From NCBI GenBank assembly GCA_014799505.1, contig JAAVHV010000002.1, positions 62,753-126,752 of the forward strand: 64,000 bases of DNA, in the 5' to 3' direction. The notes under the pieces are model-generated. The model was not told the origin of the DNA and searched no databases. It saw only the letters and a list, made by a program, of their open reading frames with translations. A program made the position numbers and the translations under genes. The stretch's first letter is position 1. Every line of letters starts with the position of its first letter. This stretch comes from Clostridiales bacterium. GTDB lineage: Bacteria > Bacillota > Clostridia > Oscillospirales > Oscillospiraceae. Positions 30,175-34,672 of this stretch are shown one piece after another.

Positions 30175-30363
30175 TTAACCGCGCTTGTCTCGCTCCATCC
30201 GCTCGCGGACGGCCTGCAAGATATAGCCCTGTAGGCTCTGGCCTGCGGCTTCTGCGGCTTCCCGGATTTCCTGCCCCCGCTCTTTTCGTGGTTGAATTAC
30301 GATTCTATCACATTTCGCGTTGTATGCGTCGTTGTTTTTCCGTTTGTTTTCCGATACCGGCAT
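30175..30363 (-). CDS. ribbon-helix-helix (Arc/CopG-like) repressor
   Basis: 62 aa 'KCDRIVIQPRKERGQEIREAAEAAGQSLQGYILQAVRERMERD'; RBS GGAGGGG. Confidence 0.78.
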   Translation of the reverse strand: MPVSENKRKNNDAYNAKCDRIVIQPRKERGQEIREAAEAAGQSLQGYILQAVRERMERDKRG

Positions 30364-30411
30364 AATATCCCCCCCTCCATAGGTGGTTATATCTTACCAC
30401 ATCGGCAAAAA

Positions 30412-30552
30412 CACGGCAACGTGCAAAATACACAAATGCACGGCAACGTGTTTGTGCAAAACGCAGAAAGCACGGCAACGTGTTAAAAATCGCTTGACAA
30501 CCGGCACGTTGCCGTGCTAGTATTCAGGCACAGCAAGCGACACGGCAACGTG
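30412..30552. repeat. array of five 12-bp operator-like repeats CACGGCAACGTG
   Basis: 30412-30423(+), 30439-30450(+), 30471-30482(+), 30505-30516(-), 30541-30552(+); each CACG-N4-CGTG. Confidence 0.9.
30494..30523 (+). promoter_or_regulatory. sigma70-type promoter with operator in its spacer
   Basis: TTGACA-N18-TAGTAT; operator copy 30505-30516 lies wholly inside the spacer. Confidence 0.75.
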
Positions 30553-30593
30553 CCGCAACACACCGAAAGTTGAACCTTGAAAACTGGATAGGG

Positions 30594-30622
30594 TTTACAC
30601 TCACCGGAAAATCCGCTATAAT
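30594..30622 (+). promoter_or_regulatory. second promoter upstream of the plus-strand accessory operon
   Basis: TTTACA-N17-TATAAT. Confidence 0.7.
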
Positions 30623-30817: not shown

Positions 30818-30866
30818 AAAAAGAGTGTAAACCCTGTTCAGTTTTCAGGGTTTACACTCTTTTTTA
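30818..30866 (+). terminator. strong hairpin terminator
   Basis: AAAAAGAGTGTAAACCCTG-N9-CAGGGTTTACACTCTTTTTT, ~19-bp stem. Confidence 0.8.
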
Positions 30867-30912: not shown

Positions 30913-31290
30913 ATGGCAAATGAGATATTCAAAACTAACCGCTTCGCAATCGAGATTGTTTCCTCTGGCGAATTTCTGGACGATGACCCCGGATTTTTGG
31001 GAAAGACCTACACGGTCCAGACCTACACCATCCGTCTGAACCATGTAGCCCTTGATGCATGGCGGGCCGCTACCGCCACGGACGACCACGAGGACGACGA
31101 AACCTGGGCGGCATGGCACCCCGGCGAGGACCGCCAGACCTACCGGGCCGCCGTAGAAAAGCGCAAGGCGGAATTTGACGCGCAGATTGCCGCCGCGCTG
31201 CAAATCACAGGAGCGGCTACCGGCAGTTTCTCCGTTGTCCGTGTACTCTCTGAAATTTTCGCGGTTGCTTACATCCCCACCTCCCGCTAA
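30913..31290 (+). CDS. hypothetical protein
   Basis: 125 aa ORF with AAAGGA RBS. Confidence 0.6.
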   Translation: MANEIFKTNRFAIEIVSSGEFLDDDPGFLGKTYTVQTYTIRLNHVALDAWRAATATDDHEDDETWAAWHPGEDRQTYRAAVEKRKAEFDAQIAAALQITGAATGSFSVVRVLSEIFAVAYIPTSR

Positions 31291-31296
31291 TAGCCC

Positions 31297-31369
31297 GCAA
31301 GGCCGACGGTATCCGCCGCCGCTGGTGCAAGTCCAGCTACCGGACAAATCCGGCGGGCGCTCATGGGCC
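31297..31369 (+). ncRNA. structured leader element, copy A
   Basis: GCAAGGCCGACGG...GCTGGTGCAAGTCCAGC...CCGGACAAATCCGG...GGGCGCTCATGGGCC. Confidence 0.6.
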
Positions 31370-31421
31370 ATAGCCCGCACAACACAACCACAAACCCAAA
31401 ATTTACAGGAGGTTTTTCACC

Positions 31422-32501
31422 ATGACAAACACTGAAATCATCACCAACAGCCTGAAAGCGCGAGGCATGACCGACGACCAGCTCCAGCAGCTTTTGAGCG
31501 CCTACCACGGGGATCTCCCGTTCCACACCATCCCAGAGTGGTCCCGCCGTGGCTACCACGTCAAGGCCGATGAAAGCCCGCTTTTCTCTTGCGACCTGTG
31601 GAAGCACACCAACAAGCCCAGCCGCACCACCATCAAGGCGGCGGCGGAGGCGGGCGAGGATGTCCCGGAGCAGTCCCCGCACTTCTACAAAAAGCTGTCG
31701 TATATCTACAGCTTCGCCCAGGTGGAAAAGAACGCCCCCGCGCCGGATCTGGAAACGATCAAGGCCCGCTTTGGCAACCTGCCCGGCCTGGTGCTGAAAG
31801 TCAAGGGTGAAAAGACCGGCGCGCCCAACGTCTGGTTTTCCGGCGACGTGGAGAAGTACGCCGACGAAATCAAGGCGGTGGGCGGTATCTGGTCCAAGAA
31901 AAAAGCGGCCTACTGGGTGAAGCCCAGCACGACCACGGCGGAGATCACCTCCGTGCCGGCCCCCTCCATGATGGAGGACGCGCCCTCCGCCCCGGCTCCG
32001 ATTCAGGCCGGGCCCGCTGCTATCCTCCCCCGGGTTCGGCTGGCGCTGCCCGCCCCGGCGCGTCTCCTGGCGCTTCCCGCTCCCAAGGCTGACCCGGAAC
32101 CGGCCCCCGCGCCGATCCGGGAGACGGCCCCCAAAATGGTAACTTTGACCATTCACCCCGGCAAGCTGACCCCGCAGCCCTGGAAAAAATGCAGCTTCTA
32201 CACCATCCGCCGCGACGAGGAAACCAAGCGCCCCACGGCCCAGCAGGTAGACGGCTACACCGACGGCATATATAACTACTATTCCAGCGGCGACAAGTCC
32301 AAACAGTGGCACGCCATCCACCCGGTTTACGGTCTGTCCGTCGCTTATGCCAACAGCCGCAAAGCCGCCCAAACGGAAGCGCAGAAGCACGCCGAGCAGA
32401 TCCAGCGCATCGAGGCCAACCCCGACGCCAAATTGCAGCAGTACGCCGCCATGATTAAAGCGGCCCAGGACGGCGGCAATGTGACCCTCGCCGGATTCTA
32501 A
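31422..32501 (+). CDS. mobile-element accessory protein, ArdC-N/polyvalent-protein-like N-terminus
   Basis: 'LPFHTIPEWSRRGYHVKADESPLFSCDLWKHT...HFYKKLSYIYSFAQVEK'; Ala/Pro-rich linker; RBS AGGAGG. Confidence 0.6.
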   Translation: MTNTEIITNSLKARGMTDDQLQQLLSAYHGDLPFHTIPEWSRRGYHVKADESPLFSCDLWKHTNKPSRTTIKAAAEAGEDVPEQSPHFYKKLSYIYSFAQVEKNAPAPDLETIKARFGNLPGLVLKVKGEKTGAPNVWFSGDVEKYADEIKAVGGIWSKKKAAYWVKPSTTTAEITSVPAPSMMEDAPSAPAPIQAGPAAILPRVRLALPAPARLLALPAPKADPEPAPAPIRETAPKMVTLTIHPGKLTPQPWKKCSFYTIRRDEETKRPTAQQVDGYTDGIYNYYSSGDKSKQWHAIHPVYGLSVAYANSRKAAQTEAQKHAEQIQRIEANPDAKLQQYAAMIKAAQDGGNVTLAGF

Positions 32502-32517
32502 ACCCCCAGCATGACCT

Positions 32518-32645
32518 GCAAGGCCGACGGCATCCGCCGCCGCTGGCGTTAGGCCGCCAACGGTGGCCCCAGCCCTAAGCCGCGCAAGGCGCGGCCCACG
32601 GGTGCAAGCCCAGCCGCCCGGCATCCGGACGGGCGTTCATGGGCC
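32518..32645 (+). ncRNA. structured leader element, copy B (with insertion of family II repeat)
   Basis: Same 5' and 3' blocks as copies A and C; 52-nt repeat 32551-32602 inside the apical region. Confidence 0.6.
32551..32602 (+). repeat. small structured repeat, family II copy 2
   Basis: AGGCCGCC-AAC-GGTGGCC...CTAAG-CCGCGC-AAG-GCGCGG-CCCACGGG. Confidence 0.7.
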
Positions 32646-32695
32646 ACAAAACCCAAAAGCACAAACCCAAAACCACAAAACGGAGGTTTCACATT

Positions 32696-33139
32696 ATGGC
32701 AGCAGTTGAACGGAAGATCACCGGCACTTTCTCCAAGGTGCCCGGCGGGTATGCCCAGGAAATCGACGAGCGCACAACGCTTTTTGTCCCGGATATGTGC
32801 GCCGCCAGCTTCATTCCCGAAACCGGCGAGCTTCACGGCTATGCCCCCGACTATGACGCACTGGAAGCGGCCAAGCCCCTCGCCGTTGAGGCAGACAAGC
32901 CCGGAGAGTATTTCTATTACTACGAAATGAATCACGCGCCGACTGGCTGCGACTTCTCCGCCGAACTTGCCTATTACGGCAAGCACTACATCCTCCGCCC
33001 TCTGCACAATGGTCTCCCCAGGCTCCACGGACGCGGCATCACCTACAACGAGCAGTACAATACCTACATAGTCACACTCCGCGCCTATGAGAAAATCAAA
33101 GAGCAGTACAAAATCAAGCGCGAAATGTGCCTTGACTAA
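32696..33139 (+). CDS. hypothetical accessory protein
   Basis: 147 aa, RBS GGAGG; 'MAAVERKITGTFSKVPGGYAQEIDERTTLFVPDMCAASF'. Confidence 0.65.
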   Translation: MAAVERKITGTFSKVPGGYAQEIDERTTLFVPDMCAASFIPETGELHGYAPDYDALEAAKPLAVEADKPGEYFYYYEMNHAPTGCDFSAELAYYGKHYILRPLHNGLPRLHGRGITYNEQYNTYIVTLRAYEKIKEQYKIKREMCLD

Positions 33140-33142
33140 CCC

Positions 33143-33212
33143 GCAAGGCCGACGGCATCCCGCCGCCGCTGGTGCAAGTCCAGCCGCCCACCAGGGCGGG
33201 CGCTCATGGGCC
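33143..33212 (+). ncRNA. structured leader element, copy C
   Basis: GCAAGGCCGACGG...GCTGGTGCAAGTCCAGC-CGCCC-ACCA-GGGCGG-GCGCTCATGGGCC. Confidence 0.6.
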
Positions 33213-33253
33213 GCAAAACCCAAAAACAAAAAACCAAAACAGGAGGAAATGCC

Positions 33254-34285
33254 ATGAAATACTACGAAATCAGCGAGGAAACCGCCCGCCGCGCAAATAT
33301 GATGAACTCCATGCGCGACTACAAACCCGGCAGCGCAACCGCCGAATATCGCACTGCTGTGGACCAAGCCGCCGCCCTGGTCGAGCAGCAGAAGCAAAAA
33401 GTCAGCCCGTTCTATCACGACAAGCTGGACGGCCTTCTGGACCGCTATGCCCGCCGCCTTGCCGCTTACTACAACGACTACTACCGCAACGAGGCTGCGT
33501 GTCCGTCCATCCTAATTTCCGGAGGCAGTAACTTCCCCGTCCGCAAGAAAGAAAAGCAAAACTCCCGGCGCGAAACGCTCATGCACGAGTATAACGAAAT
33601 CCAATCCATTTTGGACAAGATCAAAAGCGTCGGCACCGGCCCCATTGACCCAGCGGACCCCCACGCCCGCGAACTGCTGGAGGATCGGCTGCAATCCCTA
33701 CAAAGCACGCTGGACAAGGGCAAGGCCATGAACGCCCACTATCGCAAACACAAAACCATGAAGGGCTTCCAGGACTTCACCGACGAAAAAGCCGCCAAGA
33801 TGGACGCGGCCATATCCAGCGCCCCGCCCTTTGCGCAAACCCCCTTCCCTGACTTCGAGCTTGCCAGTCTCCGGGGGAAGATCAAACGTACCCAGGAAAA
33901 CCTCGCCAAATTGGCATCCATGGAGGAGCACAAGGACGACGCCGCAAATACCCTGAACTTCGACGGCGGCAGGATTTTCCTGAACATGGAACAAAACCGC
34001 CTGCAAATCTTCTTCGACGAAATCCCCAGCGAGGACATCCGCGCCGCTCTAAAATCCCATAGTTTCCGCTGGTCCCGCCGAAATGAAGCGTGGCAGCGCC
34101 AGCTAACCCATAACGCAATCTATGACGCCAAGAAAGTCCTCGGCATCACCGACACAAAATCGGCCACCGCCGCCAATCAGGGCGACGCCGCCCAGCAGGC
34201 CGCGCCCCTGGCAACTCCCGACGAGGATCCGCCGCTTGATGTCCCCACCGCCCCCGATGGTCAAGCCCTCATGCCCCTGGCATAA
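33254..34285 (+). CDS. hypothetical polyvalent/LPD-like accessory protein
   Basis: 343 aa; 'SHSFRWSRRNEAWQRQLTHNAIYDAKKVLG' typical of mobile-element polyvalent proteins; RBS AGGAGG. Confidence 0.6.
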   Translation: MKYYEISEETARRANMMNSMRDYKPGSATAEYRTAVDQAAALVEQQKQKVSPFYHDKLDGLLDRYARRLAAYYNDYYRNEAACPSILISGGSNFPVRKKEKQNSRRETLMHEYNEIQSILDKIKSVGTGPIDPADPHARELLEDRLQSLQSTLDKGKAMNAHYRKHKTMKGFQDFTDEKAAKMDAAISSAPPFAQTPFPDFELASLRGKIKRTQENLAKLASMEEHKDDAANTLNFDGGRIFLNMEQNRLQIFFDEIPSEDIRAALKSHSFRWSRRNEAWQRQLTHNAIYDAKKVLGITDTKSATAANQGDAAQQAAPLATPDEDPPLDVPTAPDGQALMPLA

Positions 34286-34360: not shown

Positions 34361-34672
34361 ATGGACAACAAAACAGAAGTGTTTGCCCCGTACCGCTGTG
34401 CTGCCGTCTTTGCCGACGGTTCCCGGCTTACCTTCGACGGTCTCACCCGCGATCAGGCGCGGGCCACCATGGAGGCCGCTATGGAGCAACATGGGGACCT
34501 CGGCTGGTGGGACTGGGTGACAGACGAAAACTACCGGCACGGGGAGTATTACAAGCTGATACCCCCTCCGCCGCACCTTCCGTTCCCCATCATTGATCTG
34601 CCTGACTGCCAGACCGATGAAGAGCGCCTAAAAGCCCTACAGGACCCCTTTGAAGAGGACGGCGAGCCGTGA
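34361..34672 (+). CDS. hypothetical protein
   Basis: 103 aa ORF, RBS GGAGG. Confidence 0.65.
   Translation: MDNKTEVFAPYRCAAVFADGSRLTFDGLTRDQARATMEAAMEQHGDLGWWDWVTDENYRHGEYYKLIPPPPHLPFPIIDLPDCQTDEERLKALQDPFEEDGEP

Follow-up and report, generated by a model that had tools for sequence, protein, structure and literature searches.

Twister-sister self-cleaving ribozymes were reportedly first described by Weinberg and colleagues in 2015. The four-way form of the class, RF02681 in Rfam, has five stems (P1-P5), an L1 loop with the strands GCAAGG and GCGCUCAUG, an SL4 loop UGCAAG, a C^A cleavage step, and the residues G5 and A63 (PMC5660989). In the crystal structure the UGCAAG loop docks onto the catalytic loop L1, and changing either G5 or A63 abolishes or nearly abolishes cleavage (PMC5660989).

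Tandem ribozymes in prophages are already published in the form of hammerheads, which lie around single genes or short gene blocks and cleave a polycistronic RNA of 2 kb in vitro; one array also cut in E. coli (PMC3088659). Enrichment of ribozymes in each other's vicinity and around genes of Mu-like phages has been reported as well (PMC10085705). What small self-cleaving ribozymes do for bacteria and phages has been called unclear or unknown (PMC3088659, PMC10085705). Another natural self-cleaving RNA located upstream of a bacterial gene is glmS, which also leaves a 5'-OH product. However, glmS depends on a metabolite cofactor and reduces expression, whereas twister-sister needs only a divalent metal and, in the case described here, is intergenic.

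The window analysed here is a stretch of 64,000 nucleotides from an Oscillospiraceae genome. It is a prophage or phage-plasmid, in which minus-strand genes for a portal protein, both terminase subunits and ParA/ParB-like proteins surround a plus-strand operon. A preliminary description of this DNA had placed three copies of a structured RNA between the operon genes, and the copies, their common blocks and hairpins, the A/C-rich stretch that follows them and the strong RBS are all present in the sequence, the copies at the coordinates given there. The operon and its elements are as follows.

30494-30523, plus strand: second promoter-like site upstream of the operon (consensus scan)
30594-30622, plus strand: promoter-like TTTACA-17-TATAAT upstream of the operon (11 of 12 matches in a consensus scan, which is not functional evidence)
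30913-31290, plus strand: gene 1, 125 aa (from the ORF list), with 2 nt between the end of its stop codon and copy A
31293-31369, plus strand: copy A, twister-sister of the four-way form (RF02681); predicted cleavage C31362^A31363
31363-31421, plus strand: predicted leader left on the gene 2 mRNA, 59 nt, A/C-rich, with AGGAGG at 31407-31412
31422-32501, plus strand: gene 2, 359 aa, family F3; IMG/VR homologs with 56-76% identity; PHROG 34979/25027, unknown function
32514-32645, plus strand: copy B, interrupted twister-sister (29.9 bits); would-be cleavage C32638^A32639
32547-32600, plus strand: 54-nt two-hairpin dispersed element within P4 of copy B, with GG on each side (32545-32546 and 32601-32602)
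32696-33139, plus strand: gene 3, 147 aa, family F1; 14 viral loci with 73-81% identity
33139-33212, plus strand: copy C, twister-sister (RF02681); predicted cleavage C33205^A33206
33206-33253, plus strand: predicted leader left on the gene 4 mRNA, 48 nt, with AGGAGG at 33241-33246
33254-34285, plus strand: gene 4, 343 aa, family F2; PHROG 19458, annotated 'primase' (E 9.7e-114); homolog in Faecalibacterium phage FP_Toutatis
34307-34335, plus strand: promoter-like TTGACC-17-TATGAT before gene 5 (consensus scan)
34361-34672, plus strand: gene 5, about 103 aa; its homolog ends the operon in FP_Toutatis

The 'primase' label of gene 4 is the only functional hint among the operon proteins. Gene 4 has no relative in PDB, gene 1 has no match over cut-off in Pfam, NCBIfam or PHROG, and PADLOC gave no match for the operon.

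The preliminary description could not assign the repeated RNA to a known family, and here an Rfam search supplies the answer. Copies A (31290-31373) and C (33136-33216) match RF02681 with 75.9 and 71.5 bits, against a gathering score of 34 bits; the E-values from cmscan over the whole window, 1.2e-15 and 2.3e-14, are far beyond chance. The Rfam content of the window is these two matches and one tRNA, and in the whole assembly copies A, B and C are the sole credible twister-sister matches. Judged by sequence and predicted anatomy, copies A and C are twister-sister self-cleaving ribozymes of the four-way form (RF02681), from which they differ in nothing essential. Both carry the L1 strands GCAAGG and GCGCTCATG (in RNA, GCGCUCAUG), the SL4 loop TGCAAG and stems P1 to P5 that the family calls for, the one blemish being an A.C pair in P5 of copy A. 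All three copies have G5, A63 and the C62-A63 step, and the cleavage steps are predicted via alignment to the solved ribozyme (PMC5660989). The hairpin formerly called T-arm-like corresponds to P4-SL4, the variable one to P5. A T-arm-like leader bound by a protein is thus unneeded, since TGCAAG forms SL4, which docks on L1 (PMC5660989).

Copies in relatives make the compensatory changes that had been noticed among the three repeats clearer. Across 60 distinct copies, 98.5% of the stem cells are paired and 11 of 25 pairs have changed on both sides, although the patterns used to find copies fix much of the core, so that invariance at those positions is partly built in. The covariation score is 0.181 as compared with 0.054 in shuffled alignments, none of 500 shuffles reaches it, and a shift of the register by a single base leaves less than 47% paired, with no slid register coming near the true one. 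A search of phage and plasmid collections at blastn sensitivity returned no close copy of ribozyme A, and scans of viral contigs and species genomes with CGCTGGCGTTAGGC gave almost entirely chance matches, the pattern being too short.

Placement is as regular as the fold. In viral contigs with homologs of genes 2, 3 and 4, there are often four to seven copies per locus at nearly every gene junction, and the largest arrays pack seven copies, one at each junction, into 4.7 kb. Within the same bacterial family, nine of 301 genomes have a match over the cut-off, several of them with arrays. Among 88 distinct copies, the median distance from the upstream stop codon to the start of P1 is 6 nt, and P1 often begins on the final base of that codon; the last base of the gene 3 TAA, for instance, is base 1 of P1 in copy C. 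A total of 74 copies begin -14 to +1 nt from the stop codon, and in 72 an RBS-supported start lies 27-70 nt past the cleavage site. Both placement rules hold for 63 of the 88 copies as against 1.0% of random same-strand positions, where the relatives are mostly metagenomic viral contigs rather than independent samples and their genes are simple RBS-based ORFs. The start codon is a median of 44 nt past the cleavage site, behind a leader that is typically A/C-rich with a strong RBS (leader statistics from 81 copies). The proposal that the element is a selected RNA, possibly an intercistronic processing site, is therefore backed by the Rfam match, by covariation and by this strict position between stop and start.

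The genes of these operons come and go around a backbone with the order F3-F1-F2-F4, and each added small gene brings its own ribozyme. The 60-aa F5 occupies the F3-F1 interval in some loci and the F1-F2 interval in others, with its own ribozyme each time.

The same slot is also filled by other classes of RNA. RAGATH-5 (RF02685), which differs from twister-sister in sequence and fold, occurs within arrays mostly 6-10 nt after stop codons. Rfam types it as a ribozyme, and its catalytic status is that typing, as a literature search found no published cleavage test. In the homologous operon of FP_Toutatis (L419, 5576-9971), which also sits between the terminase and a late regulator, there are seven RAGATH-5 RNAs and no twister-sister. 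Six of the seven are over the cut-off and one scores 48.6 of the 50 bits needed; most are 4-7 nt behind stops. In addition, a hammerhead pattern scan of 6.4 Mb gave three matches.

L028, minus strand, 1976 from the reversed start: hammerhead-like ribozyme, CTGACGA / GAAA / TC^, three stems
L044:4077: hammerhead-like ribozyme, same pattern
L367:6173: hammerhead-like ribozyme, same pattern

All three are at array junctions, -1, -2 and -13 nt from the stop; the scan had no other match in the 6.4 Mb and none in the shuffled control. Two of these sequences fold as a hammerhead, and Rfam scans of the three loci reported no hammerhead.

Strict placement at the stop codon, one copy per gene and replacement of one class by another in homologous operons point to a single function, the cutting of junctions. 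In contrast to the tandem hammerheads (PMC3088659), the class here is different, the arrays are denser, the position relative to the stop codon is fixed, and the slots are interchangeable with RAGATH-5 and hammerhead-like RNAs. A fixed slot next to the stop codon, with one copy per gene and filled by different classes, was not found described in a literature search. We lean slightly towards a family of phage operons of these gut bacteria in which nearly every stop codon has a fixed slot for a ribozyme, fillable by unrelated self-cleaving classes (twister-sister, RAGATH-5, hammerhead); each gene would then be a cassette equipped with RNA scissors of its own and would become a separate mRNA whatever its neighbours. 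The function is testable in Faecalibacterium phages, given the seven RAGATH-5 RNAs of FP_Toutatis in the homologous operon; the prophage Lelie, related to FP_Toutatis, has been reported active (PMC11792537).

In the window, the ribozymes lie in sense orientation at successive junctions of what we infer to be one transcription unit. It is very likely that copies A, B and C represent twister-sister at successive junctions of a prophage accessory operon, whose single RNA would cut itself into mRNAs of one or two genes. A transcript would start upstream of gene 1, at the promoter-like sites at 30494 or 30594. In each intact copy the RNA would fold into P1-P5, SL4 would dock on L1, and the RNA would cut itself at the C^A step; copies A and C should do so. 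The upstream mRNA would keep the folded ribozyme as its 3' end, right behind the stop codon, with a 2',3'-cyclic phosphate. The downstream mRNA would begin with 5'-OH-AUGGG, followed by an unstructured A/C-rich leader of 48-59 nt and a strong RBS. As each gene would carry its cutter along, the operon could gain or lose genes with no effect on those next to them. Copy B would probably cut slowly or not at all, and genes 2 and 3 would therefore remain together. Counting against this model are the gene 4-gene 5 junction, which has a promoter-like site and no ribozyme, and a terminator-like hairpin at 30818-30864, between the upstream promoter and gene 1. Leaderless translation from the AUG of 5'-OH-AUGGG was considered and rejected: this AUG is in frame with the downstream gene in copies B and C, but over 81 copies the leader lengths divide 31/21/29 between remainders 0, 1 and 2 modulo 3, and the frame is thus not conserved.

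Cleavage could also lower expression instead of separating it, because RNase J1 degrades the 5'-OH product of glmS in B. subtilis (PMC11780869). The array would then be a constitutive damper, with RNase J destroying the 5'-OH pieces. This is unlikely, as the downstream genes typically retain a strong RBS and have their start codon some 44 nt inside the new 5' end, and as gain or loss of a cassette includes its ribozyme, both of which would be odd for a damper; nor is a ligand-binding domain seen. The mobility of cassettes itself raises another explanation, namely that the copies serve mainly as homology blocks for cassette shuffling and that cleavage is secondary. The two positions of F5, each with its own ribozyme, agree with this, as does the slightly greater likeness of copies within a locus (5.2 edits) than of same-junction copies across loci (6.2 edits). 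Yet homology alone requires neither the retention of catalytic residues and of stems, the latter through compensatory change, nor the occupation of one slot by unrelated ribozyme classes, and we regard shuffling as the main role as quite improbable.

The main alternative in the preliminary description, a protein-binding or translational leader element that does not cleave, drew on the position before RBS sites and on the T-arm-like TGCAAG. It is hardly credible for an RNA that matches in full, active-site residues included, a ribozyme class of established cleavage. Moreover, the element sits on the stop codon, and almost none of it would stay with the downstream gene after cleavage. Self-cutting at the junctions is the reading that we retain.

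The middle repeat is a different matter. At a permissive threshold copy B scores 29.9 bits, under the 34-bit cut-off, because a 56-nt insertion parts GCTGG from TGCAAG, and the model draws the 5' half of B from the insert. By score it falls outside RF02681, and it is filed here as an interrupted derivative that differs from the family by a 54-nt insertion in P4 and by C60U. The hairpin GCTGG-TGCAAG-CCAGC that had been attributed to all three repeats is not contiguous in B, and B is no equivalent third copy, being interrupted by a dispersed repeat. The layout between GCTGG and TGCAAG is CGTTAGG-hairpin-CCCCAGCCCTAAGCC-hairpin-GGCCCACG, 54 nt with GG on either side; the 56-nt insertion is CGTTAGG...CCCACG with the second GG. 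With the insert omitted, B differs from an intact copy in L035 by three core substitutions: C to T in P1, G to A in P5 and, within L1, C60 to T. The 88 other copies all have C at position 60, where the search pattern also permitted T.

As an interrupted twister-sister, copy B is probably decaying and slow or dead, with residual activity conceivable. Alternatively, it may still be functional, with a longer P4 and perhaps under regulation by the insert. The insert closes on itself (CGT...ACG) and has GG on both sides, so that P4 pairing and the TGCAAG loop are still possible, and L031, from another genome, has a like insertion at this very position, within a core that is intact in other respects and scores 41.2 bits. 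L031 belongs to another genus, where the ribozyme precedes a different gene. Nevertheless, a working variant is doubtful: B carries a U.G pair in P1, a broken C.A pair in P5 and a G9.U60 wobble that is absent from the 88 other copies, its minimum-energy structure is predicted to differ from the ribozyme fold, and its insert is a dispersed repeat that also occurs outside ribozymes. A reading of the insert as a riboswitch aptamer was dropped as first choice on account of that dispersal and of the 2-nt duplication. No description of a ribozyme split by a dispersed element was found in a literature search; in viral contigs, a gapped scan for twister-sister with a long insert gave no ribozyme and an exact-match scan for the insert gave nothing.

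The dispersed element has two copies in this genome, the further one away from ribozymes at C1:12448-12498 (L397), nine and eleven in two relatives, and single copies in others. A 2-nt flanking duplication, GG or in two cases GC, is found in 19 of 21 distinct copies, as would be expected of a target-site duplication. The two hairpin stems vary between copies yet mostly still pair. With dispersed copies and such a duplication, the insert of B appears to be a tiny mobile-looking palindromic element of MITE or REP type. Its general form, 47-55 nt long, is CGTTAGGC-hairpin-CCCAGSCCTAAGCC-hairpin-GGCCCACG, with carriers G000, G029, G309, G395 and G369; no name of an established family was found for it. 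Several copies seem to be located in the 5' arm of another hairpin. At L015:1440-1584 there is a chimera of the 3' half of the element with the 3' half of a twister-sister, the 5' half of which is missing.

Other sequences were seen near these operons. In L324, L325, L326, L327, L336 and L360, a conserved hairpin-like GGGGGAGTCAACCGCCGCCCC lies within about 30 nt after the twister-sister and is followed by CACCTTGAAAAC, which we take to resemble a boxA-type antitermination site. Matches to the DUF3800-VIII RNA lie on the opposite strand near the same operons in L033, L036 and L044. In the window, a repeated palindrome, CACGGCAACGTG, with the look of an operator array occupies 30408-30555, beside a small minus-strand gene (30175-30363) whose product has a weak likeness to TacA/NikA DNA-binding proteins. 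The terminator-like sequence before gene 1 is an inverted repeat of 19 bp, perfect in its pairing and accompanied by A and T tracts, and has a 30-nt partner 220 nt upstream at 30573-30602. The pair flanks a 52-aa ORF, and a similar arrangement precedes the remnant in L015.
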